Source: Methanofollis ethanolicus
GTDB lineage: Archaea > Halobacteriota > Methanomicrobia > Methanomicrobiales > Methanofollaceae
Reading direction: 5' to 3'
Assembly (NCBI RefSeq): GCF_001571385.1
Contig: NZ_BCNW01000001.1
Coordinates: forward strand, 1,922,001-1,986,000
Length of the DNA: 64,000 bases
Position numbers and translations under genes: made by a program. Of this stretch, positions 3,129 through 18,169 are shown one piece after another. The number at the start of each line of letters is the position of its first letter. Positions within the stretch are counted from its first letter, which is position 1. The notes below the pieces were generated by a model. The model ran no database searches. It was not told the DNA's origin and saw only the letters and a program-made list of their open reading frames with translations.

Positions 3129-3280
3129 TGAAAATCAGTCAATAGCATCGATGGATGTTATGCATGGAGCATGTGTTCCATGGTATCCGGGATGGTGATC
3201 CCATCGAAAGATACACCGCAAACGGTGACGTTTGCCGATCCATTTTGTTATTGGCTCTAAGCACAATTGGAGTCAATAAA

Positions 3281-4126
3281 ATGAGCAATCAACAAGACGT
3301 TAATTTCAAGGTCGGTATTGTTGGCCTTGGATCGGTTGGTTCTGCTGTTAAACACGCACTGAGTTTCTACTATCCCTGCACCGGTTATGACATAAAAGGT
3401 ATCGGTTCATGGAGTGACATTCTGGAAACACAGGTGACTTTTATCACCGTTTCGACGCCGGAAGGCATTGACAGTCGCCTTGACTGTTCAGCGGTTGATA
3501 ATGTTTTGTCCCGGCTCAACGAAAGTGGGCATTCCGGTATTTGCGTGATAAAAAGCACTGTTGGAGTTGGGTATACAGATTCAGCGGTGAGACGTTTCCC
3601 GTGTCTGCGAATCGTTTACATGCCGGAATTTTTACGCGAAAAAAGCAACTTCACCTGGTTTGTCAACCCTGACAGAATCGTTGTAAGCGGAGACGATCAG
3701 GATATCGATACTGTGCTGGAATTATTCACCTGGGTAGACGGGCTCTATGACACGGTGCCGGTTTTACGGATGTCTTATATCGAAGCAGAAATTGGAAAAC
3801 TTGCTCATAATGCAAGAATTGCACTCCTCGTTAGTTTCACAAATGAAATTGAACAGATTTCTCAGGAACACGGCGCCGATCCAAACCGGGTAATGAGTGT
3901 AATCCATGCCGACAGACGCGTAAAGTCCCAGGAACATCTGCGACCGGGACTTGGTCCCTATGGCGGGAAGTGCGTCCCGAAAGATACCAGGGAACTGATC
4001 AATGCCTCACGCAATACGATACTCCTCAAAGCGGCAGAGACTGTAAATAACACTCTCCTGAACAAGAGGTTTCCCCTCGATGTGAAAACTGCCGTCTCAC
4101 AACCGACTGAGAAACGGATCTGCTAA
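3281..4126 (+). CDS. Short UDP-glucose/GDP-mannose dehydrogenase-family protein
   Basis: 281 residues from the ATG at 3281 (an upstream in-frame ATG at 3155 would add 42 residues with no family likeness). The N-terminus carries the NAD-binding signature GIVGLGSVGSA (G15, G17, G20). The motif PYGGKCVPKD places the catalytic cysteine at C231, as in dehydrogenases that oxidise a nucleotide sugar twice to a uronic acid. The protein stops soon after this central region, so the C-terminal UDP-sugar-binding domain of the usual 400-450-residue enzymes is missing. It may have another substrate or work with the large protein that follows 17 bases downstream. First gene of a tight operon in an AT-rich island. 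Confidence 0.8.
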   Translation: MSNQQDVNFKVGIVGLGSVGSAVKHALSFYYPCTGYDIKGIGSWSDILETQVTFITVSTPEGIDSRLDCSAVDNVLSRLNESGHSGICVIKSTVGVGYTDSAVRRFPCLRIVYMPEFLREKSNFTWFVNPDRIVVSGDDQDIDTVLELFTWVDGLYDTVPVLRMSYIEAEIGKLAHNARIALLVSFTNEIEQISQEHGADPNRVMSVIHADRRVKSQEHLRPGLGPYGGKCVPKDTRELINASRNTILLKAAETVNNTLLNKRFPLDVKTAVSQPTEKRIC

Positions 4127-4143
4127 GGGGGCACGAGAAAATT

Positions 4144-7100
4144 ATGACGCAACTTGCTGTACTTATTGCCACAAAAAACCGCCCGGAATCCCTGAAAAAT
4201 GCGCTTCATTCGATTATCCGTCAGACAACTCAGCCGGATACAATTTTTGTTGTCAGTGATTGTGATTCCGAACACGAGAAAGCAACAGATCGAATTATCC
4301 ATGAGATTGCCCTGACATTTCCACAAATTCGCTTGATAGAAAATCAGAGGACAAAAAATCTCTCCGGCGCAATAAACACAGGGCTTCAAACTCTTATTGA
4401 AGATAATTACATCCCTGAATCTACATACTGTGCCCTTCTTGATGACGACGATGAGTGGGAACCGGAGTATCTCTCCCTCTGCCTCGAAAAAGCCGAATCA
4501 GAAAACCGGGATGTTGTTATATCGGGCCTTATCCGTCATGAAAAGCAGGATGTTGATGGGGTGCGATTATCTATCCCTGACGCTCTTAGTGTCGGTGATT
4601 TTTTTGTTGGAAATCCCCATGTCCAGGGTTCAAATCTTTTTGTCCGGTTCTCGACACTTCTTGCAGCAGGGGGGTTTGACGAAAATCTGGAAAGTACGAC
4701 AGACAGGGATGTATGTATTCGAATACTCGATCTGAGTTCATGCAAGGTTGGGTATATTCAAAAACATCTGGTACATCACTGGGCTCTTCCCAATACAAAC
4801 CGGCTTTCTGAACCGCAGTCCCCCCGTAAGATTCAGGGTTTAACAGAATTTTACAACAAATATGCTCCACGCATGAACTCTCAGGAACAGGATGCATTCA
4901 GGCATCGTGCCCTGAAGCTGTTTGGATGTGAAATTCATTCCGTTGGAATGCCTGATGGAGCCAAATCGATACCTCTAGACAGACCACGTTGTTATCAAAC
5001 CGAATCAACAGTTCCTCTGGTCGTTGGTTTCATTGCGACGCGGATGACATCCACTGAAAGTCTCCTCAACGATCTTCATGCTTTTTTTGGGGATTCTTCT
5101 GGTATTCGAAGGGTTGTAATCTGTGACAACACACCATCAACCGAAGTTCTCAAACAGTTGCTTGGTCGCGAACAGTATCGATCGCTGAACTGCACGCTGA
5201 TCAGCAGAAAAACCATCGATGAAGAATGTGATGCAGGAGTATTTGGATCATATCTGCAGGATAAAGAACAACGGAAGGGTATTTCTTCAGGAAGGACTGT
5301 CCTTCATCACCATCTTTACAAAGAGGCCAAAAAAATACCCGGTTCTGTTGTATGGGTGTTGGACGACGACATAAGGCTCGAATATCTCACAAATGAGCAT
5401 ACTATTGTCAAATTGTCCTATCAGGATGTGCAGGACACAATAGTGAGACTGAAAAGTCAGGGTATTAGCATCGCCGTTGGAAAAATAACCGGCGACGCGC
5501 CGCTCCCAGTGCATAGTACTCTTCGGGTTCAACTTCTCGATATTTTCTCAGAATTGAAACGCAGGGAACAGGTACTAGTCTCTGAATCTTCAGGGCAAAA
5601 AAATACTCAAATCAAGCATATTCACCAGACTGATAACTTATCTGGGAAATTTCCGGATTATTACTATGACTATTCGGGCGAACACACTGCACACCTTGAA
5701 TTGCCTTTTCGAGAATCACTGATGGAAATCCCGACAATTGATGATCTCATCCAGAAGATCCCTGAAATCGGGTTTGGGAAAAATATCTCCCGTCCGGTTA
5801 TAACCCAACCCTGTTCATCCTGTAGCAAAGTGTCTGTATCATCGCCGTCCATTATCCCTCGGGGAGGGAATACCATCGTTCTCAATCTGGAGTGTCTTCG
5901 TGAATTTCCCAACCTGTCTCCCAGAATTGGACAATTGAATGCCCGCCGCGGGGATACGTTCTGGTGTATCCTCAACAATCGCATCAAGGCGACCAGGGTA
6001 GGTTTATTCCCCCTTGCCGTACGGCAGGAAAGAACATCTGAAACGACGCGGGCACATGATTTTAGCACACTTCTTGCAGATTTTTATGGCAGTGCCTTCA
6101 TCCGTGCGATGGATCAGTACTATGAGAGAAAAATTCAGGAAACCGGTTCCGTTCCCCGTCGTCTCAGACTCTCAATAGATAATAATGGCAGGGAAATGAT
6201 CTCGTCACTGTTCGGGAGTCATCTGAATAGGAGACTTTCCCATTTTGTAATGAATGCCTATCGCATTCGGGGTTTAATCGGTTCAATTGAGAATACATTA
6301 GAGTCAGAAGTCTTTTGTGATGTCCAGAGGATCTACGAGGTACATTCATTCCTGAACTCACTGAAACAACTCTACTCTCCTGAGAATATCTGGAAGACCT
6401 ATCATGAGGGGAAGTGCTGGAACCGTACTGACCTGGATCTGTTTCTCGGTCATTTCAAAGAATATGTGAAGACCTATCACCACAACCTTTCCCAGGAGAT
6501 TTGTCCGGAACATATCAGATATGCAAAACAGGTTACGGAAAGAATCCTTAGGAAAAGATATCGCGACATATCGATTCCCCTGCGGAACATAGGGTATGGT
6601 CATGAAGGAGCCGTATTCACTGATGGCAAAAACGTGTACAAATATTTCTATGCAGGCCTGGCGAATTTTCAGGAAGCCCGCCTTGAAATCCTCAGGAAAA
6701 AGGTATTAAACAGCAGTTCTCTTCCCCATTTGAGTTCTCTTACCGATATTATTGAGGAAAATGGAGAACTGATCTTTGTCATGTCCTATGAAGGCGATAA
6801 AGAATATTCGGGTGGTCACCTCCAGGATATACTCGCAATTCTGAATGAATGCAAAGAATCCGGCATCGCATTTACAAATTTTCATCCAAAGAACCTGATT
6901 GTCAATGGTGATACGCTTAAATTGGTAGATATCGGAGATTCGATTGTTCCGTACAATGAAAAAGAATTCCTTCAGATGTGCAGAAGGGCATATCTTACGT
7001 GCCGCTGGTATTTCCGAAAAGATATATCAGAATTGATGTCGACCGCTCTCTTTGACCCGGACCTGCCTGAACTCTGTGGGTTTAACTATTTTTTCGAGGC

Positions 7101-9354
7101 TACGAAGAAAAAAACAAAAAATGATCTTGTTAACGAAAAAATAGTTCAATTGGTTGCTGAAAGCCGTCCCACAAGGATTTTTGATTATGGATGTGGAAGA
7201 GGATCAATTGCAGAAAGACTAGCAGACATGGGGTATCGTGTGTTTGCGTATGATCCAGATCTTTCAGTCCTTCGTAAGAACTCTACCAACCCTATTAAAG
7301 CTCATTATGTTGACCCCAACGAATTGGCACACCTGATATTGTGTGGTGAGAAGTTTGACACTGTGGTCTGTAGTCTGGTTCTCTGTACAATCAGCGATAA
7401 CACGGAAGTAAAGGAGGTCATGGGAAATATCCGTAAGCTGGTTTCAGATGACGGTGAAGTAATTGTTGCTCTTTGCAATCCTTTTTCATCATTTGTTCCG
7501 GAATCTGAGACCCATATCAAGTTGGACCTTCCTGAGGATACGAAATATCAAAAACAATTTTGTTACCAGAAAAGAATGAAGGAAACCGGCAAGATTCGGT
7601 ATGAATGCCACAGGCCGTTCTCATGGTACAAACACCTTTTCCACCAGCATGCCTTTGAAATCTCGGGAATTGAAGAAGTCAAAACACTGGACATTCAAAA
7701 CCTCTGTCCTTCCAGTGATTTCATCATCCTGAAGTTAAAACCTCTCAATATCCCGGAAAACCACAGTGTCTCACTTCTCATCCGTGCGGGTGCAATGGAA
7801 TGGGAGACAATCGATCTTCAAATCCGACACATTGTTAGTCAATTGGAAGGACCTCAGACTTTTTTAGAAAAAATCGTGGTCACGGATAACTATACGGGCC
7901 CATTCGCACGCCAATATTCTCAGGCAAACCTGATGGATTTCAAAAGGAAACTTGACCGTCTCGTTGCTGAAGGAATAATTGATATGGTGGTGACCGCACC
8001 TGAAGATCCCTCAATCATTGAAGACACCAACATAAGATGGTTTAATGTTTCTTCAGCGAACCCGCGTAGTCGGAATGGTCAACCGACCTTTATGGCGCTT
8101 TTCGGGTTTGAACAGTGTCGGGGAGATTATATTCTCCATATGGATAGCGACTGCATCATCGCACGAATGGACCGTGACCATGATTATCTGGGAGATATGG
8201 TCAGTATTTTCCAGTCCGATCCAAATGCCCTTACAGTTTCATTCAATATCGCAAAATCTGATGATGAACCATACACACGGGATAGTCAGGGGAAAAAATG
8301 GCGAACTGAAGTGCGATGTGGGCTGATATCGAGGGCTCGAATTCTATCGTCACTTCCTCTCCCGAATGATGCAGATGAATCAGGCGCACTTCAACTTGCC
8401 TGGCATCGTGCTCTCGATACCAAACTTGTTCAATCAGAATGGCAGTCCTATCGTGGGGGAGACCGGCGAACATTTTTCATCCATGTTCCCAACACCACAA
8501 AAACCAATGGTAATTTTTGGTTCACTGTGCTCGGGTCTGCGGAACAAAAGAAGATTCCAGAGATCCAGAATAATTCCGTTGATCTCATAGGAACAATGAA
8601 TGACTGGGTCGGTTCTCTCAGTAATGAATGTGTATTCATCATCCGTGGAAAAGATGTTCCCATTTCAAAATTGCGACGATGTATGGATTCGGTAGATCGG
8701 CAAACAGACTCCAGCTTTGGCCTGGTCTTCATCGATGCAGGATCCTTGAATCCAGTTCCCGAGTATATCAAAGAAGTCCTTTTACCCACATGGGGGGAGA
8801 GGGCCCGTGCATTTCTCAATTTTTCCCCCCTGACGTCTCTTGAAAACAATGTAATTGCTATTCGAGATATCTGCTCAAATCCGGACAGTGTCATTATCAC
8901 ATTGGATATGGACGATGCCCTCATCGGGACTGATGTCATCGAGTGCCTCAGAGAAAAGTATCGCCAGGGGGCAGATTTGACCGTAGGGTCCATGATACGA
9001 ACAGATAAATCATGTGATTATCCAGCAATATTCGAGGATGTCCGGAATGCACGGGGCGGCAATGTCTGGCAGCACCTGAGAACATTCAGGAAATATCTCT
9101 TTGATGCTATCCCGGAATCCTATTTCAAAATTGATACCGGTTGGATTTCCTTTGCCGAAGACTGGGCTTTTATGATTCCCATGGTTGAGATGGCAAGACA
9201 TCCGCTCTATGTCAATAAGATTCTGTACTTCTACGAACCCACGGGGAATAAAGACCCGGCAACCAGGCTCCGCCGGGAAGATATGATCGCTAAAATTGTC
9301 GAGAAGAATCCCCTGAACCGAGATTTCTGCATCTTAAGGGGCGGTATGGAATGA
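4144..9354 (+). CDS. Giant glycosyltransferase / kinase-like / methyltransferase protein
   Basis: 1736 residues, a chain of modules. Residues 3-260: family 2 glycosyltransferase (ATKNRPESLKNALHSI; acidic metal site DDDDEW at 100-105). About 290-480: a second GT-A-like domain with LDDD at 406-409. About 815-1000: a protein-kinase/aminoglycoside-kinase-like domain with a glycine-rich stretch GYGHEGAVF, K833, an HxxN catalytic-loop likeness (FHPKN, H914, N917) and VDIGD (D929) in the place of DFG. About 1005-1160: class I SAM methyltransferase with motif I DYGCGRG at 1014-1020. About 1250-1500: a third GT-A with MDSD (1334-1336). About 1535-1730: a fourth with LDMDD (1588-1591). No signal peptide or clear membrane segment. 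It overlaps the next gene by ATGA. The combination suggests assembly and decoration of a phosphorylated, methylated glycan, but the product is unknown. Confidence 0.8.
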   Translation: MTQLAVLIATKNRPESLKNALHSIIRQTTQPDTIFVVSDCDSEHEKATDRIIHEIALTFPQIRLIENQRTKNLSGAINTGLQTLIEDNYIPESTYCALLDDDDEWEPEYLSLCLEKAESENRDVVISGLIRHEKQDVDGVRLSIPDALSVGDFFVGNPHVQGSNLFVRFSTLLAAGGFDENLESTTDRDVCIRILDLSSCKVGYIQKHLVHHWALPNTNRLSEPQSPRKIQGLTEFYNKYAPRMNSQEQDAFRHRALKLFGCEIHSVGMPDGAKSIPLDRPRCYQTESTVPLVVGFIATRMTSTESLLNDLHAFFGDSSGIRRVVICDNTPSTEVLKQLLGREQYRSLNCTLISRKTIDEECDAGVFGSYLQDKEQRKGISSGRTVLHHHLYKEAKKIPGSVVWVLDDDIRLEYLTNEHTIVKLSYQDVQDTIVRLKSQGISIAVGKITGDAPLPVHSTLRVQLLDIFSELKRREQVLVSESSGQKNTQIKHIHQTDNLSGKFPDYYYDYSGEHTAHLELPFRESLMEIPTIDDLIQKIPEIGFGKNISRPVITQPCSSCSKVSVSSPSIIPRGGNTIVLNLECLREFPNLSPRIGQLNARRGDTFWCILNNRIKATRVGLFPLAVRQERTSETTRAHDFSTLLADFYGSAFIRAMDQYYERKIQETGSVPRRLRLSIDNNGREMISSLFGSHLNRRLSHFVMNAYRIRGLIGSIENTLESEVFCDVQRIYEVHSFLNSLKQLYSPENIWKTYHEGKCWNRTDLDLFLGHFKEYVKTYHHNLSQEICPEHIRYAKQVTERILRKRYRDISIPLRNIGYGHEGAVFTDGKNVYKYFYAGLANFQEARLEILRKKVLNSSSLPHLSSLTDIIEENGELIFVMSYEGDKEYSGGHLQDILAILNECKESGIAFTNFHPKNLIVNGDTLKLVDIGDSIVPYNEKEFLQMCRRAYLTCRWYFRKDISELMSTALFDPDLPELCGFNYFFEATKKKTKNDLVNEKIVQLVAESRPTRIFDYGCGRGSIAERLADMGYRVFAYDPDLSVLRKNSTNPIKAHYVDPNELAHLILCGEKFDTVVCSLVLCTISDNTEVKEVMGNIRKLVSDDGEVIVALCNPFSSFVPESETHIKLDLPEDTKYQKQFCYQKRMKETGKIRYECHRPFSWYKHLFHQHAFEISGIEEVKTLDIQNLCPSSDFIILKLKPLNIPENHSVSLLIRAGAMEWETIDLQIRHIVSQLEGPQTFLEKIVVTDNYTGPFARQYSQANLMDFKRKLDRLVAEGIIDMVVTAPEDPSIIEDTNIRWFNVSSANPRSRNGQPTFMALFGFEQCRGDYILHMDSDCIIARMDRDHDYLGDMVSIFQSDPNALTVSFNIAKSDDEPYTRDSQGKKWRTEVRCGLISRARILSSLPLPNDADESGALQLAWHRALDTKLVQSEWQSYRGGDRRTFFIHVPNTTKTNGNFWFTVLGSAEQKKIPEIQNNSVDLIGTMNDWVGSLSNECVFIIRGKDVPISKLRRCMDSVDRQTDSSFGLVFIDAGSLNPVPEYIKEVLLPTWGERARAFLNFSPLTSLENNVIAIRDICSNPDSVIITLDMDDALIGTDVIECLREKYRQGADLTVGSMIRTDKSCDYPAIFEDVRNARGGNVWQHLRTFRKYLFDAIPESYFKIDTGWISFAEDWAFMIPMVEMARHPLYVNKILYFYEPTGNKDPATRLRREDMIAKIVEKNPLNRDFCILRGGME

Positions 9355-10025
9355 AACCCGGGGATTATGTACTTAATCTCATCAAAAACGCACCAAAAAA
9401 TCGTCGGACAATCGCACTCATTCGGCATTCAAAGAAAGAATCGTTTAATGGGATTCCTGACGAGCTTCGTGATTCTGTTGGAATTACTGAGGAGGGCATT
9501 GTAATGGCCAGAGAATTTGGTGAAGCAATGAATCAAATCCCCTCTGTACAGAGACTTCTCCTTGGTCATACCATAGCGAAAAGAGCGGAGATGACGGCCC
9601 AGTCAATTTTTGATGGATATTGTTCTGACGGTCAGGCAAGGATTCTCGGATGCGAACCGACAATAACAAGTCCGGTCGTAAATCTCGATAATCTGGTAAA
9701 GGTAAGAAACACGTTCGGGTGGCCAAATCTCATCATAAAATGGTTGGATGAGAAAATTCCCGGAAATACCCTTCGGAACCCGCATGAATATACTGATGAG
9801 ACATTGGGGTATTTGTTGCAGTATCCGGGACCGGGCATGGGCGAGTTATTAATCCTCGTTGCTCATGACATTACTCTCTTTCCCTTAATCTACAGTTTAT
9901 TTGGTGAAAAGATAAAGTCAATCGAATTTCTCAATGGTATCGTCATTTCAGCGGATACAAAAATTGCTGAAATTGCATTTGTTGATGCAAAACACTCATT
10001 CAAGACGGAGCGTAGAATTTTATGA
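9351..10025 (+). CDS. Histidine phosphatase-superfamily protein
   Basis: 224 residues, start ATG overlapping the stop of the giant gene (ATGA). The N-terminal motif LIRHSKKE gives the R25-H26 pair of the phosphoglycerate-mutase-like histidine phosphatases, where the His is phosphorylated during catalysis. The second histidine is seen in VAHDITLFP (H172). These enzymes remove phosphate from sugars, nucleotides or proteins. The sequence RHSKKESFNG departs from the classic RHGET, so the substrate cannot be inferred by family. Tight coupling to the kinase-bearing upstream gene suggests an opposing phosphorylation/dephosphorylation pair. Confidence 0.8.
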   Translation: MKPGDYVLNLIKNAPKNRRTIALIRHSKKESFNGIPDELRDSVGITEEGIVMAREFGEAMNQIPSVQRLLLGHTIAKRAEMTAQSIFDGYCSDGQARILGCEPTITSPVVNLDNLVKVRNTFGWPNLIIKWLDEKIPGNTLRNPHEYTDETLGYLLQYPGPGMGELLILVAHDITLFPLIYSLFGEKIKSIEFLNGIVISADTKIAEIAFVDAKHSFKTERRIL

Positions 10026-10594
10026 CCGATCGAAAGATGATTGCAGTGATTGGTGATGCAAATTTGCCGGAAAACTCTGAAAAATATATTCTGGCGGAAA
10101 AACTTGGTTGTTGTCTGATCGATAATGGATTTCAATTGATTACCGGTGGACTTGGCGGAGTTATGGAGGCAGCCTCAAAAGGGGCAAAAAATTCCTCCCA
10201 TTATCGGTCTGGTGATACAATAGGTATTATCCCAGGCAATGATCCGTGTGAAGCAAACCAGTACGTCGATATTTGTATACCTACTGGTCTGGACATTGGC
10301 CGGAATATTATAGTTTCAAATGCAGATGCGGTCATTGCAATCGGTGGAGGTGCAGGCACACTTTCTGAGATGGCGAATGCCTGGGCTTTAAAGCGCTTGA
10401 TTATAGGATATCGTGTTGAAGGATGGAGCGGAAAACTCGCCGACCAGAAAATTGATTCCCGCAATAGGTACCCTGAGATCTCTGAAGATCGGATCTATGG
10501 CGTTAACACAGAGATTGAAGCTTTAAATGTGCTTAAATTATTGCCCCGGTATGATAGGAGACATAAAAGAATCATAAAAAGAGGCAGAGAATGA
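10022..10594 (+). CDS. SLOG/LOG-type Rossmann nucleotide-binding protein (TIGR00725-like)
   Basis: 190 residues; start ATG overlaps the stop of the phosphatase gene (ATGA). The protein has the SLOG layout: MIAVIGD at the N-terminus, GGLGGVMEA (42-50) and GGGAGTLSE (108-116), the last matching the PGGxGTxxE site of LOG nucleoside-monophosphate phosphoribohydrolases. The leading proline of that site is Gly here. It could hydrolyse a nucleoside monophosphate or bind a nucleotide-derived signal. Last gene of the 3.3-10.6 kb operon. A relic of a SLATT-like gene tail follows about 115 bases downstream. Confidence 0.8.
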   Translation: MTDRKMIAVIGDANLPENSEKYILAEKLGCCLIDNGFQLITGGLGGVMEAASKGAKNSSHYRSGDTIGIIPGNDPCEANQYVDICIPTGLDIGRNIIVSNADAVIAIGGGAGTLSEMANAWALKRLIIGYRVEGWSGKLADQKIDSRNRYPEISEDRIYGVNTEIEALNVLKLLPRYDRRHKRIIKRGRE

Positions 10595-10810: not shown

Positions 10811-10865
10811 GATCTTCGGGGAAGGGGAAGTCCAAACCCCTTCGCACGATCTCCCCTAAGCCCCC

Positions 10866-11720
10866 TCACTCCCTCTCTGAACACACACCCTGCGGCCGCG
10901 TCGCCGGGTCGCGGAGGTACTCCATGACCCTGTCCATTACCTCCGGGTTCTTCGGCAGGGTGATATGGCAGTACAATTCGGGGTGCTCCCCCAGCCTTGC
11001 AGAGTCTATCGGGAGGATGTCCATACCCGCCCCAGGCAGGTACGCATCGGTGTGCGGCACGATGCCGTCGCCGGCATAGGTCGTCTGCCACTCCCCTTCA
11101 GGACCAAGTGTCCAGGTCTTCCCCTCGAAGTACGGGAAGAAGGCGGGCGTGGCAGAGAGGTTGGCAGTGAGGATCAACCTGTAGGCGATGTCGTCGCGGC
11201 CCTTCGCACCCCGCAGCGCGGCAATGGTCCTGCTGTGCGGGCGGACCTCCTGGGCGATGACGTCGTCGGCAGGATCATAGCGGTGGGGCACGAAGACCCC
11301 GGCAAGGCGGTCGAGAATCTGCGGGCCATGTTCGGGATCGTTGAAGAGTTCTGAAAGGGAAGACCCGTTGTTCGGCGTGCCAATGCAGATCAACTGCCTG
11401 ACTCTCTCTTCCCTTTCCATGACTTCGAGGAGGTAGCGGGCAATGCAGCCCCCGACGGAGTGGCAGACCATATCGACAGGGCCGGCATAACCGGTCTCCT
11501 CCCGCATCAGAGCGATATAGTCCCCGAATGCAGCGGCGATCTCGGTGAGCGGGGTGTTGCTCATCATTCCGCTGTAGTCGAAGACCCAGTATGGTATCGA
11601 TGCACTCTCCATCTGTGGGACCAGGCGTTTCCAGACGCCAGGATGACTCTTCCACCCATGGACCAGGACCACCGGACATTTTCTTTCCTCTCTTGATCCA
11701 TCTCCCATCCCGGAAATCAT
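10866..11720 (-). CDS. Alpha/beta-hydrolase, lipase-like
   Basis: 284 residues. The oxyanion-hole motif VVLVHGWKSHPGVW sits near residues 17-30 and the nucleophile elbow is VCHSVGG, with S88 as the serine nucleophile (C replaces the usual first G of GxSxG). DMVCHSVGGCIARYLLE is typical of triacylglycerol lipase / PGAP1-like esterases. There is no signal peptide, so it should act in the cytosol on an unknown ester. A TATA-like TATAAATG sequence lies just upstream of the start (about 11730-11740), so the mRNA may have almost no leader. Confidence 0.8.
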   Translation of the reverse strand: MISGMGDGSREERKCPVVLVHGWKSHPGVWKRLVPQMESASIPYWVFDYSGMMSNTPLTEIAAAFGDYIALMREETGYAGPVDMVCHSVGGCIARYLLEVMEREERVRQLICIGTPNNGSSLSELFNDPEHGPQILDRLAGVFVPHRYDPADDVIAQEVRPHSRTIAALRGAKGRDDIAYRLILTANLSATPAFFPYFEGKTWTLGPEGEWQTTYAGDGIVPHTDAYLPGAGMDILPIDSARLGEHPELYCHITLPKNPEVMDRVMEYLRDPATRPQGVCSERE

Positions 11721-11834
11721 TGTACATCATTTATACCGAATCACCATTACCCTTTTGTCGGGCCAGGTCCTCCGCAAGTCGGTTCTCTCCGCTCCAGGAA
11801 AAGATATATGGCATGGCCTATATGTCCACGGCAT

Positions 11835-12764: not shown

Positions 12765-12921
12765 ATGACTCACCCGGCCGTCGATAGGTGGAGGGGCATG
12801 ATAAAAGTATGCGGGCCGGGCGAGGGGGAGTTCCCGAAATGTTCCGACCGCTCAGGGTCGGTTGCCGCCGCACCTCCGCCGCCATCACCTTTTTGTCGTC
12901 CGCTGTCCATGTAGTAGGAGA

Positions 12922-13005
12922 GCGAGGGTAGCCAAGTCGGCCAAAGGCGCCGGACTTAAGATCCGGTCACGAAGGTGTCCATGGGTTCGAATCCCATCCC
13001 TCGCA
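12922..13005 (+). tRNA. tRNA-Leu (anticodon TAA)
   Basis: 84 bases fold into a class II tRNA. The acceptor arms are GCGAGGG at 12922 and CCCTCGC ending at 13004, with discriminator A at 13005. The anticodon stem CCGGA/TCCGG encloses the loop CTTAAGA, giving anticodon TAA for Leu. A long variable arm (TCACGAAGGTGTCC region) and the T-loop GGGTTCGAATCCC are present. CCA is not encoded. No intron is seen. It borders the AT-rich island 13.0-18.9 kb; tRNA genes are frequent integration sites, but no repeat of its 3' end was found. Confidence 0.95.
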
Positions 13006-13304
13006 TTCTTTCTGTGGGTTATAGTTAGTAGTGAAAAATGCCACTATCGGAATAGAGACCTAGTGACTCTGTTCAACCCTCCATGAATCGGTCGGTCGTT
13101 CCCATGACTTGCTGAAGTTTGGATTCAAGACCTTGTTCAGATCGTATCTTCTTTTCGCTGTTATTCAAGCAACTTAAACTTCTCTATAAAGAGCAGGTTT
13201 TGGAGAGTCTGATACCTGAGATGTAGAGCATGAGCACTACGTATAGTATTTATTAGTCTTGCCATTAAATATGGATTAAATGGGCCTATTCTGGAGTTGA
13301 AGCG
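13006..13304 (+). promoter_or_regulatory. Upstream region of the 13.3 kb gene, with TATA box and mini-ORF
   Basis: No gene is seen in these 299 bases. A TATA-like AGTATTTATTAG lies near 13245-13256. About 25-30 bases downstream an ATG at 13280 opens a six-codon frame (MGLFWS, stop at 13298-13300). The Shine-Dalgarno GGAG (13293-13296) of the following gene (ATG 13305) lies inside this mini-ORF, so the two could be coupled in translation. Confidence 0.3.
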
Positions 13305-14034
13305 ATGAAAACGTATCTATCCCTCTCTGAAGATAGTATGATGGCCTTAAAAGAATGTGAAAAATCTGGCGCGAAAGTCTGTTTGAGTGCAATACCCATT
13401 GTTGGTGCTGCCCTAGACGAAATCGCTTTTGAAGGTCGCGGTCGGATGTATCAGAATAGATTAAACAAGTTCATAGAATTGCTTAAAGAGTATATGAGTT
13501 CAGTTCGGGAAGAGGAGATCGATTTTACCTACTTAAAAAGCGATGAGTTTGGCGACATCTTTGAGGCGATCATCCGAAAAGTGTTATTAACGGGGTCTGA
13601 GGAGAAAATCAATCGCTTCAAGATGATCCTTGTTCAAGACATGAAAAACACCTATCATTCGGACTATAGAAACGTATCTTGATGTCGTATCGAAAATCAA
13701 TGAAGATCAAATCACGATACTCAACGAATATCGGAAATTCAGAGAAAATCCGTCAGCTGAAGATGGTATACCTAAACGCAATTTAGTTGATGGTGGAACT
13801 GCAGGGAGCAAAAAAACGATAATCTCCTCCCATCGTTTACCTTCGCATTATGACCTCGAACAGTCAAAATATCTGTTTTACATTCAGGATCTAGTCTCAA
13901 AGTCCCTCCTCTTTGATGATGGATTGGGACGGATTGGAATCGCTCCCTTTGAAGCGCTGGAAATAACCGATTTTGGTTGTGAATTTTTAAACTATATTGA
14001 GGGATATGAAAAGGAAAATGGCAGTTTGACCTAA
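13305..14034 (+). pseudogene. Frameshifted helical protein of unknown function
   Basis: The first frame runs 13305-13682 (125 residues) and stops. In the +1 frame the coding pattern continues at once from about 13669 (ETYLDVVSKINEDQITILNE) to a stop at 14034, so one gene of about 242 codons seems broken by one extra base near 13660-13675. The N-terminal part has a short hydrophobic stretch (AIPIVGAALDEIAFEGRGR) and then amphipathic helices; the C-terminal part (FEALEITDFGCEFLNYI) resembles a small winged or helical domain. I do not recognise the family. Base use is AT-rich like its neighbour, unlike the flanks. Either a decayed gene or a sequencing error. Confidence 0.55.
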
Positions 14035-14180: not shown

Positions 14181-17100
14181 TTACATTTTTTGCAACACCC
14201 CAAGACCATCCCGTTCAATTTGATTGAGGGAGATAATCGGAATTTCAGGATCCAAGTCATGGAGATAGGCTGAGGGAATTGCCTCTGATGTTAATACCAG
14301 TGATTTTACTTGATACTGTTTTGATAGGCGTGAAAAATATCTTATTACTATATCGTAGTTTTCTTTGAGCCATGTATCCCGCCTTTTATGCTTCGCTATC
14401 CAAGAATCCTCTTCTTCAGATCCGTGGTAAAATCTGACAATTTCATTTGCCATTTCCCGGGCATTTCTCCCGAAATTGATATTTTTACATTCTATTGAAT
14501 AGATCACACCATTTACTTCATCAATTCCGAGAACGTCAACATCTCCTAAATTGTCCCAATTCGATTTTTTCTCAATGGATATAGGTATGTCAATATTTTT
14601 CTTGACAAACCACGTTGAATTTTTACTGAACCACTCTTCAACGTAACTAGTAAATTCACCCCCCTTCAAGAGGAGAATTTTATGAATAAAAGATTTCATT
14701 TCTGGCGTGGAAAATGTTACATCATACCTTCCATTAGCAATCAATTCCGCAATATATTTGAGGGATCTTTCAGACTGTAACGACCCCCACATTATGATGG
14801 GGTCGTCTTTGGGTTCTGAACCAATAAGTAGCGGCCTCCTTGTATGGGATAACCTTCGGCGAAACTTCCAAGGAGCAATATCTGCCTCAAAACTGTATCC
14901 TCTAGGTGGGTCTTCCCATGATCTTCGTTTTTTAAGTGAAAATTCTTTTATTGCTAGGTTAACATCTTGATCAGTCCAGCTTAATGCCTGTTTGACACGT
15001 TTTTTGAATTCGCTTATATTAAGAGAATATACAGGACCTTGCTGTTCTGGGCAAATAAATAATTCTGTACTATGAATTAAGCAACAAAAGAACCTACTTA
15101 ATTGAGTTGTATCAAATCCGAATTCGGTTGAAACAGCTTTGTCCATCTCCTCAAGTAATACTATTTTCCTTGGAAGATCCTGTTTTTTCTCGCAATCGAA
15201 TACTTCTTTATAACCATCATAGGATCCCTCTACGTATTCTTTTGTTTTCTCCTTGAGAAATGCTATATATTTGGCTTCTAAGTCTTGCATTGGAATATAA
15301 ATTCTGCCTGCTTCACCGTATTGAAATTCTGACTGAAGAATTTGATTGTAATAAAAATCAGCAGCTGTAGCCCAATCTATGAAGTTATGAAGAATTGCTA
15401 GCATTTTGTCAATATCATCAGAATTTGACTGTTTATTCCCGTATGGGGGTTCAGCAACTATTATTTCAATTAAAGTCCTTACACATAACATTGTTTGGTC
15501 GATTCTTGAGAGTTTTTTCATCACAGTCTTTGGATATTCAGAATCGTCGGGATAGCAAGCAATTTGATATGGTACCAAAAAATGCATTTCTTCCCCCATA
15601 TGCAAAATTGAATCGTTTAGCCCTATAAGAATTGTTAGAATTTCATCCCCCCGGTATTGTTTAACCAACGATTTTAGTCTCTTAAGATATACTTCAACAA
15701 TTTTTTTACAGATCTCAATTTTCTCAGATTGGGTGAGATTTTCGGCGAATTTACATTCTTTTAGTTCACTCATAAGACCAAGCGATTGCTCTTGCACATC
15801 ATGATACTGAATTAATCTCGGTTCTGGGAAATTACCGTCACTTAGAAGGCCATTGCTCAAATTAGAAAATAGAAGCAATTGCTTTTTAATTCCGAGTGGC
15901 GCGTAGTTCTTAATTATACTGTCTATCTGTTGGCTAGTGAGAGAACTCTCACCCAATTCTCCTTCAATAAAGTAGGAGATTGCCCTTAATAGCCCGTTTA
16001 ATAGTACACGCTCGCCAGAATTGTCCGAGCCTATTATTTGCTTTAAAAAGGTTTGGGGAATGAAGAATACGATATTTCTTCCTTTTATTTGGATTTGAAA
16101 AGAATCATCTCCACTATTATTGTCTAAGAATGCCTTACTAGTATGACACCAATTCTCAATATTCTCACACTTCAAAAAGATATGAATAGGATTGGTTCCG
16201 AGAGGCTTAAGATATTCTTTTAATCCAGGGGTGAACTGTGAGAGCCAATATGCAATTGTTTTTGTAAAATCCTTAACAATTTCAAATGTCTCAAATGCAA
16301 GTTCGTCAACAGTGTCGTAATACAATATCCAAAGTGGCTGATAGTAACCTTCAACCTCATACCCAAAACAATTTGAAACCAGTTCTTCCAGTTGATATAT
16401 TGGAATTTGTGAATCAAAATAAGCGTTCACCACAGGAGCATAAATGGTCTGATCCCCCTCTCCCAGAGGGACAAGATGCGAATCGTACATACGCGCTACT
16501 TTTAGCCTAAGTTTTTTTCCCAAACCAGGAGGTATTGGTACAACTTTTGGAAAATTTCGAGATTCTAGGATTAGTGTGTCTTTTTCTTGGTAAAATGAAA
16601 ATATATCAAGAAAAGAGTATGAAAAATAATGATAGTAATCAGAGGCATCTGAAGCGGCTTTAACATATTTCCATAGCGTGAGCCGATCACACATTCCAGA
16701 CAAACTGATTATTTTTAAATTTTCAGCCGAGATCAGTAGTGTACGTATTTGTTCGATGTTTTGATACTTGAGATAGGATTCACGCCCAATATGGCCGATA
16801 ATCTTCAAAATAAAAATGTCAGTAGAACTGCTTAGATCCTTCTTCAAACTACCAAGAACTTCTATGTCTCTCTTTCGGATCTTCTCAATTAATTCCTTTG
16901 TATCCCATTCACCCTTTGGATTTTTGATGTCGTACCCTTCAACAGGATCACAAATTAATTGGACATAAGCAATTTTATCTGAATCTATACGAAATAATCC
17001 CTCCTCAACGGGTAGAGTTTCGTTGAGTGGCGGGAAAAGATAGTCCAACAGATCATAGCCCATTAAAAAGAGATATTTAAGCGAATTTGACCATAATATC

Positions 17101-18023
17101 TCACGATAATATTTAGCAAAATCGTACTCGATATGATATTCTATTGCGGTTTGAATTATGTTGTGCCTTAATGCACAAAGTAAGGAGATCGGATTTAACA
17201 CAACAAACTCGCTGCCGAAGTTAACTAGCGGTGAAATCGCTAACTGATTACTACCAGGATCAAGATTTTGAAATTTTTCACTTCCAATATCTGAGATGAA
17301 TGGAATTATCACCTCGTTGATTGCGGGAATTATTTTTTCAATTTCCTTCTTTTGGAAAGTTACTGCGTCTTTATAAGTAATGAATTCACTATCCGTTGGA
17401 AGGCTGATATCCTCTCGTTTGCTTGTCCAATCATGAGGGGTGTCCATGTATCGGCGATGGCCCAATCTTCTTGCTATTTCATTACTTATAGTCAAAATTG
17501 CTAAAGACCTAGACAATACATCCTTATTGAAATCATCTGGGAATTCATCTTGACAGGAATTAATAGTAATGAAAATATTTTCAAGAATTAAGTTTTCTTC
17601 GTGATAGATGCTTGGATAAACATTATTATCACCATTTAAATAGGAGATATTTTCTGTGAAAAGGTGTTCTGGGGGGTCTTCCTTTAATCCTATATCGCTA
17701 ATTGTTGGGAGATATCTATTGAGATGCTGACAAAAGTCTTCGATGTCAATACAAGTATCTCCAAACCTTTTTATTGAGCAGGCTACCTGAGCCGCAGCCT
17801 CAAGTCTAACTGCATGATAGTCGTTTTCAGGAACAAGTTGAAGCCCTCCAATTGTGGCAATAAGATCCTCCCCTCTAAGGGTTCTAAAATATGATTTTAA
17901 TAAACCAAATTCTGCTTTTGGAACCTTTGAAAATACATCATCGAATCTACCATAGCAGCAGTTTTTATATTTCTTTCCACTCCCACAGGGGCAAGGGTCG
18001 TTTCTGCCTATTTTTCCACTCAT
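14181..18023 (-). CDS. Large SEC-C zinc-finger protein with PD-(D/E)xK nuclease-like C-terminus
   Basis: 1280 residues from the ATG at 18023, chosen over a GTG eight codons upstream because GAGGGAG (18036-18045 complement) is a good ribosome-binding site for it. The N-terminus is a SEC-C zinc motif, PCPCGSGKKYKNCC (C11, C13, C22, C23). The centre, about 1100 residues, is not recognised and is largely helical. Near the C-terminus LGDVDVLGID and SIECKN place D1163, E1178 and K1180 as in PD-(D/E)xK nucleases, followed by a helix (NAREMANEIVRFY) and a further strand region. The gene is AT-rich, stands alone, and lies between tRNA-Leu and a cas1 remnant. A DNA- or RNA-cutting defence role is possible but unproven. 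Confidence 0.7.
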   Translation of the reverse strand: MSGKIGRNDPCPCGSGKKYKNCCYGRFDDVFSKVPKAEFGLLKSYFRTLRGEDLIATIGGLQLVPENDYHAVRLEAAAQVACSIKRFGDTCIDIEDFCQHLNRYLPTISDIGLKEDPPEHLFTENISYLNGDNNVYPSIYHEENLILENIFITINSCQDEFPDDFNKDVLSRSLAILTISNEIARRLGHRRYMDTPHDWTSKREDISLPTDSEFITYKDAVTFQKKEIEKIIPAINEVIIPFISDIGSEKFQNLDPGSNQLAISPLVNFGSEFVVLNPISLLCALRHNIIQTAIEYHIEYDFAKYYREILWSNSLKYLFLMGYDLLDYLFPPLNETLPVEEGLFRIDSDKIAYVQLICDPVEGYDIKNPKGEWDTKELIEKIRKRDIEVLGSLKKDLSSSTDIFILKIIGHIGRESYLKYQNIEQIRTLLISAENLKIISLSGMCDRLTLWKYVKAASDASDYYHYFSYSFLDIFSFYQEKDTLILESRNFPKVVPIPPGLGKKLRLKVARMYDSHLVPLGEGDQTIYAPVVNAYFDSQIPIYQLEELVSNCFGYEVEGYYQPLWILYYDTVDELAFETFEIVKDFTKTIAYWLSQFTPGLKEYLKPLGTNPIHIFLKCENIENWCHTSKAFLDNNSGDDSFQIQIKGRNIVFFIPQTFLKQIIGSDNSGERVLLNGLLRAISYFIEGELGESSLTSQQIDSIIKNYAPLGIKKQLLLFSNLSNGLLSDGNFPEPRLIQYHDVQEQSLGLMSELKECKFAENLTQSEKIEICKKIVEVYLKRLKSLVKQYRGDEILTILIGLNDSILHMGEEMHFLVPYQIACYPDDSEYPKTVMKKLSRIDQTMLCVRTLIEIIVAEPPYGNKQSNSDDIDKMLAILHNFIDWATAADFYYNQILQSEFQYGEAGRIYIPMQDLEAKYIAFLKEKTKEYVEGSYDGYKEVFDCEKKQDLPRKIVLLEEMDKAVSTEFGFDTTQLSRFFCCLIHSTELFICPEQQGPVYSLNISEFKKRVKQALSWTDQDVNLAIKEFSLKKRRSWEDPPRGYSFEADIAPWKFRRRLSHTRRPLLIGSEPKDDPIIMWGSLQSERSLKYIAELIANGRYDVTFSTPEMKSFIHKILLLKGGEFTSYVEEWFSKNSTWFVKKNIDIPISIEKKSNWDNLGDVDVLGIDEVNGVIYSIECKNINFGRNAREMANEIVRFYHGSEEEDSWIAKHKRRDTWLKENYDIVIRYFSRLSKQYQVKSLVLTSEAIPSAYLHDLDPEIPIISLNQIERDGLGVLQKM

Positions 18024-18169
18024 TTTCCACTCTTCTCCCTCGCACACAAAGGGGGGTGCAGAAAGTTGATTTCGAAGAAAATCAAGCTAATAGTTGTCTC
18101 TATCTCCACTACGCATCAATCTTGTGAAACTAATCGGTAATTATCGACCAGAATGAAAAGAAAATGAGA

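Follow-up and report, generated by a model that had tools for sequence, protein, structure and literature searches.

A four-gene operon in Methanofollis ethanolicus joins a 1736-residue multi-domain protein (BIG) to a truncated sugar dehydrogenase (DH), a histidine phosphatase (HP) and a SLOG-family protein (SLOG). We put the probability at about one half that this mobile operon makes a soluble, tailored oligosaccharide or glycoside. Judged from sequence comparisons, the four genes very likely serve one pathway, because catalytic sites are conserved, partner genes are fused and BIG and SLOG are inherited together. Fusions, co-inheritance and conserved domains thus support the idea of the initial annotation that a functionally linked gene set makes a modified glycan.

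The operon lies in a window of 64,000 nucleotides, the whole stretch of DNA analysed here (Table 1). Its description as four genes that overlap or nearly do so was right, also in its coordinates: all are on the forward strand, separated by 17 bp between DH and BIG and overlapping by 4 bp at each of the other two junctions. Although DH could also start at 3155, homology and a GGAG-type ribosome site favour the start at 3281. The AT-rich island reported initially was also recovered, with a GC content of 0.41-0.46 in the operon compared with ~0.60 outside. A scan for sigma-70 promoters gave no excess over shuffled sequences, as expected for an archaeal host.

An M3 peptidase gene lies upstream of the operon and an alpha/beta hydrolase gene downstream; a HEAT-repeat gene is also named nearby. 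In one congener (L105), the peptidase and hydrolase genes adjoin with ~50 bp between them and the operon site is empty, and in three others (L106, L107, L108) the site is taken by different gene(s). We conclude that this is a variable chromosomal site at which the operon was gained or lost as a block. The gene found there in the latter three congeners encodes ~350-365 residues, is unrelated to the operon and is either the sole gene at the site or accompanied by small ORFs. All four genes are also present in another genome of the genus (G010), where BIG is 93% identical. Horizontal movement as a mobile cassette is the best reading of these data.

Table 1. Operon genes, domains of BIG (with their coordinates in the window) and the radical SAM gene rSAM_A of related loci.
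Feature	Extent	Coordinates	Strand	Description
DH		3281-4126	+	UDP-glucose/GDP-mannose dehydrogenase-like
BIG	1736 residues	4144-9354	+	Multi-domain
GT1	BIG residues 1-275	4144..4968	+	Family-2 glycosyltransferase, D100-D103
M	BIG residues 276-669	4969..6150	+	Probable GT-A-like; D407-D409
Helical linker or bundle	BIG residues 670-800	6151..6543	+	AlphaFold secondary structure
KIN	BIG residues 801-985	6544..7098	+	Protein-kinase-like; K833, N917, D929; Asn912
MT	BIG residues 985-1198	7096..7737	+	Class I SAM methyltransferase, D1014-G1020, D1037
GT3	BIG residues 1196-1500	7729..8643	+	GT-A glycosyltransferase, D1334-S-D1336
GT4	BIG residues 1500-1736	8641..9351	+	GT-A glycosyltransferase, D1588/D1590/D1591, RGGNVWQHLR, DWAFMIP
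HP		9351-10025	+	Histidine phosphatase superfamily
SLOG		10022-10594	+	TIGR00725 / SLOG cluster-4 protein
rSAM_A (L028)		12765-13580	-	Compact radical SAM family, extra conserved cysteines
rSAM_A (L017)		10821-11753		Compact radical SAM family

The domain order of BIG is GT1, M (probable GT-A), kinase-like (KIN), SAM methyltransferase (MT), GT3 and GT4, and 168 of its residues are invariant in 12 full-length relatives. BIG has no transmembrane segment or hydrophobic segment of the membrane-anchor type and is thus predicted to be soluble. The initial annotation counted four glycosyltransferase-like domains. GT1, GT3 and GT4 are supported, each combining a GT-A fold or a family-2 profile with an acidic metal-binding motif. 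GT1 matches Pfam PF00535 (E 2.7e-29 for the entire BIG, strongest over residues 6-143) and keeps a DDDD.W motif in relatives; GT3 stands as a separate gene at three loci (L028, L029, L030); and GT4 has PDB profile matches to GalT1, TagF-type enzymes and chondroitin synthase. The best Foldseek match of the GT3-GT4 AlphaFold model (pLDDT 87.7) was the chondroitin polymerase K4CP.

The second domain of that count, M, is only a probable glycosyltransferase of the GT-A type, because it yielded no Pfam family, no PDB sequence match and no strong profile match. Its D407-D409 (DDD) is invariant, RGGNT and RR.D motifs are conserved, and the alpha/beta order in the AlphaFold model is compatible with GT-A. 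M also aligned weakly with GT1 (hhalign, probability 16.6%) and weakly matched the GT3-GT4 profiles. The folds of both M and KIN were read from sequence and one AlphaFold model of middling confidence (pLDDT 79.7), which also shows, again at middling confidence, long helices at BIG ~640-800, a region checked for a coiled-coil ruler. AlphaFold alignments comprised nine sequences.

A SAM methyltransferase at D1014-G1020, as annotated initially, was confirmed by several Pfam models, including PF13489 (4.2e-9), and by a class I methyltransferase fold in the predicted structure (AlphaFold and Foldseek). The kinase-like assignment of KIN held in part. KIN matches protein kinases by PDB profile (E 3.4e-5), and Pfam Pkinase matched 5 of 11 members, in every case below threshold. 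K833, N917 and D929 are kept and are invariant among the 12 full-length relatives, so ATP binding is plausible. However, the segment corresponding to HRDLKPEN reads T-N912-F-H-P-K-N917, with Asn where the catalytic-base Asp is expected. Asn occupies this position in 20 of the 23 relatives with a readable motif, and Asp was found only in L037, L038 and L071. Ordinary phosphotransfer by KIN is therefore doubtful, and the Asn speaks against the phosphorylation proposed initially. No BIG-type SLOG was seen at the three loci with the Asp-type KIN; the methyltransferase region looks degenerate in L037, the only one of these three sequences inspected for it. In L028 and L029, KIN has a gene of its own.

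The same unusual union of glycosyltransferase, kinase-like and methyltransferase modules (PMC11231755; PMC3482155) suggests, as an alternative, that BIG is a counterpart of WbdD or of K. pneumoniae O7 ORF6 and polymerises a surface polysaccharide, which it then caps by phosphorylation and methylation. The resemblance of GT3-GT4 to the dual-glycosyltransferase chondroitin polymerase is consistent with this explanation. We nevertheless consider it rather unlikely, as O7 ORF6 needs its Asp441 where BIG and most relatives have Asn, BIG lacks a membrane segment, the named near-flank genes are not ABC-transporter or polyprenyl-initiation genes, and the scheme has no role for SLOG.

DH had been described as a dehydrogenase without its usual sugar-binding end. 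Pfam indeed detected the N-terminal and central domains of the UDPG_MGDP_dh family (PF00984, 2.8e-19; PF03721, 8.5e-12) and no C-terminal UDP-binding domain (PF03720), and the score against TIGR03026 was below the cut-off (136.6 bits; cut-off 189.8). The NAD motif is kept, and the catalytic K173, N177, C231, K234 and D235 are present in columns that are invariant in nine homologues. In L028, L029, L037 and L038, a truncated DH is followed directly by GT1 in the same chain, which suggests that GT1 provides the sugar-nucleotide binding of DH. The truncated DH may itself be inactive on nucleotide sugars.

HP alone had no Pfam match. Its R25-H26, R78 and H172 correspond to the RH motif, the second Arg and the second His and align with fused homologues, of which that in L037 matches His_Phos_1 at 2.9e-15, in agreement with the histidine phosphatase annotated at first. 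HP follows GT4 in the same chain at six loci (L037, L038, L042, L043, L066, L071) and follows GT3 in L069. Together with DH-GT1, these fusions tie all four genes into one pathway. HP and DH are not universal members, being missing beside several bacterial loci that have BIG and SLOG.

The initial SLOG assignment was upheld by scores above the cut-offs of both TIGR00725 (111.2 bits; cut-off 106.9) and PF18306 (LDcluster4; 5.3e-33, 114.2 bits; cut-off 26.3). The catalytic residues of LOG enzymes have been defined, and the Moco carrier protein, which is among the nearest solved relatives of SLOG, has lost the Arg (PMC5379747). R94 and E116 of SLOG align with the catalytic Arg/Glu pair of LOG and do not vary within the BIG-linked clade, which also has its own C-terminal extension (G134-W-S-G, R149-Y-P). 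The motif GGGAGTLSE lacks the Pro of the PGGxGTxxE of LOG, and the Lys and Asp with which LOG enzymes contact adenine are absent as well, which makes N-glycosidase action on nucleoside 5'-monophosphates uncertain. A nucleotide-linked compound, the alternative product of the initial annotation, is possible.

SLOG adjoins or closely trails BIG at twelve loci, the distance being ~900 bp in one of them, L064; no SLOG was found nearby at the BIG loci L014 (short contig) and L070. In a comparison with 19 further SLOG proteins from these and related hosts, the BIG-linked SLOGs formed one clade (support 97/96; 98% of bootstrap trees), separate from the TIGR00725 proteins that the hosts have of their own. 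Pairwise BIG distances correlated with those of SLOG (Mantel r 0.79, p 2e-4, 12 pairs); the clade test is the stronger result because shared host descent adds to this correlation. The initial annotation had made co-occurring relatives its test beforehand, and they were found: SLOG near 12 BIG loci, a single clade, and fusions.

BIG is rare in the sampled genomes, in which genes were called mechanically. Any BIG match at 1e-25 was limited to 7 of 393 genomes of its own phylum and 1 of 289 genomes from the class that includes Roseovarius. In Planctomycetota, the GT3-GT4 profile matched in 16 of 392 genomes, several of them with single glycosyltransferase domains only. Full-length BIG was found among archaea in Methanoregula, Methanogenium, Thermoplasmatales and Methanomassiliicoccaceae, and among bacteria in Poribacteria, Rhodobacterales and sampled Planctomycetota. 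Archaea and bacteria share the catalytic positions of the glycosyltransferase, methyltransferase, DH and SLOG units. Apart from two partial relatives, a search of plasmids added nothing to the BIG-SLOG set.

Other versions of the locus distribute the same units differently. In archaea, L028 and L029 have split versions with KIN, DH-GT1, GT3 and another GT2-like gene, together with two radical SAM genes, one of them radical SAM/SPASM and the other rSAM_A. In L037 and L038, the same extra genes accompany KIN-GT3-GT4-HP and DH-GT1. rSAM_A is further found beside L013, L017, L040, L068 and L069. It was present in 3 of 199 genomes of the order, always at BIG-type loci, and in 1 of 72,556 plasmids, beside a BIG relative; because we knew of these loci already, what the searches add is that rSAM_A was absent elsewhere. 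Among the neighbours of other versions are sugar-tailoring proteins: radical SAM proteins, an epimerase and a full UDP-sugar dehydrogenase. Identification of the radical SAM neighbours as MoaA was rejected (score far below cut-off). At Thermoplasmatota-type loci, genes with an NYN domain (RNase-like) lie beside DH (L013 9324-9836; L070 2666-3247), and these two showed no homology to each other by BLAST.

The patchy distribution and the variable site would also suit a role in conflict or defence, with a modified nucleotide-glycan signal or toxin that is sensed or processed by SLOG and directed against viruses or competitors. SLOG-fold proteins are effectors in Thoeris defence, a PD-(D/E)XK protein and an SMC-like protein lie by L017 and L013, respectively, and a match to Upx is located 3.6 kb downstream in the window. 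However, DH, HP and SLOG gave only weak and partial PADLOC matches, on which ground we rejected membership in a defence system, the neighbours in other hosts are metabolic, and BIG was unmatched in 50,697 phage records; we regard this explanation as unlikely. Phage origin was rejected by the same search, and relatives were present on two IMG/VR contigs (putative viral). The Upx match (139.7 bits, residues 500-1261) lies in a 1288-residue protein with an N-terminal SEC-C motif, encoded at 14181-18047 on the minus strand in a second AT-rich island just past tRNA-Leu (12922-13005), and is probably a defence gene at a tRNA-side site.

On a Pseudoalteromonas plasmid (L039 11977-18499), a BIG-related GT1-KIN-M protein is followed downstream by a GTP cyclohydrolase II-NADAR fusion, an asparagine-synthase-like gene and an arylamine N-acetyltransferase-like gene; the cluster looks like a different pathway on the same GT1-KIN-M core. 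NADAR/COG3236 is an N-glycosidase of the riboflavin pathway (PMC4921024). That the acceptor is a GTP-derived heterocycle, and the product a pterin- or flavin-precursor glycoside, is suggested by this cluster and by the kinship of SLOG with the Moco carrier protein but is improbable, since the cluster comes from a single plasmid, the scores of the radical SAM proteins fall well short of the MoaA cut-off, and the window operon has no heterocycle-forming gene.

For the soluble, tailored oligosaccharide or glycoside that we favour, we infer each chemical step, the order of steps and the product: sugar transfer, methylation, sugar oxidation and phosphate removal from the protein families, and a nucleotide-derived acceptor, which is a guess, from SLOG and the one RibA-NADAR case. 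BIG would act as a cytoplasmic assembly line in which GT1, GT3 and GT4, probably joined by M, transfer three or four sugars from nucleotide-sugar donors while MT methylates the growing product. DH would oxidise a sugar held by GT1, which would replace its own lost UDP-binding domain. KIN may bind ATP or a phosphorylated intermediate and, with its Asn, is less likely to be an ordinary kinase than a module for binding or for non-canonical transfer. SLOG and HP, both from phosphate-processing families, would prepare or release an acceptor that carries phosphate and may derive from a nucleotide: SLOG would cleave a nucleoside monophosphate as a LOG-like N-glycosidase, and HP would remove a phosphate. 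A LOG-type enzyme and a phosphatase also occur together in the pathway of the nucleoside natural product angustmycin (PMC8599513).

Literature searches for this gene set found none, and no described pathway matches it. More speculatively, and with low expectation, we propose an undescribed class of mobile pathway in archaea and bacteria that would produce a multiply glycosylated, methylated compound, its acceptor freed from a nucleotide by a SLOG N-glycosidase and a different transfer carried out by a kinase fold with Asn for Asp. The system may be a variant of multi-module glycan assembly, and a categorically new pathway is possible. The gene set is conserved, moves horizontally and occurs in both archaea and bacteria; it couples glycosyltransferases with a member of the SLOG family and with a kinase-like fold in which a conserved Asn replaces the catalytic Asp. 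Identifying its product would reveal what role TIGR00725/SLOG cluster-4 proteins can play in a pathway, the TIGR00725 model carrying no function name, and which reaction a kinase fold with an Asn base supports. The fusions and split versions offer ready-made single-domain proteins for each step.

That glycan capping can employ glycosyltransferase, kinase and methyltransferase modules is known from WbdD and O7 ORF6 (PMC3482155, PMC11231755). Like O7 ORF6, which is arranged as methyltransferase-kinase-CBM-coiled coil-GT-GT and requires its catalytic Asp441 (PMC11231755), BIG joins two GT2 modules with a kinase-like domain and a methyltransferase in one chain. O7 ORF6 differs in its domain order, catalytic Asp, coiled-coil region and ABC-exporter pathway, and it has no SLOG, HP or truncated DH as partner. 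WbdD of E. coli O9a (PMC3482155) likewise unites a kinase-like domain and a methyltransferase in one glycan-acting protein, but it has no glycosyltransferase domains and terminates the chain of a polyprenol-linked glycan made at the membrane. BIG has the methyltransferase in the same chain; because it lacks the catalytic Asp and no Wzm/Wzt ABC exporter is among the named near-flank genes (peptidase M3, alpha/beta hydrolase, HEAT-repeat), we did not group it with these two proteins.

The closest fold match of the tandem GT-A domains GT3-GT4, the chondroitin polymerase K4CP (PDB 2z87), shares 12% identity with them and has no other modules. SLOG has the fold of LOG/TIGR00725 proteins, of AgmA from the angustmycin pathway (PMC8599513) and of the Moco carrier protein (2iz5), with the Arg and Glu of LOG, and differs from them in having GGGAGT for PGGxGT, altered adenine-contact residues and the clade-specific C-terminal extension. 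DH shares with the UDP-glucose 6-dehydrogenase family (TIGR03026) the NAD-binding and central domains and the catalytic Cys, Lys, Asn and Asp; it differs in its shortened N-domain and in the loss of the UDP-binding C-terminal domain, the place of which is taken by GT1 in the fusions.
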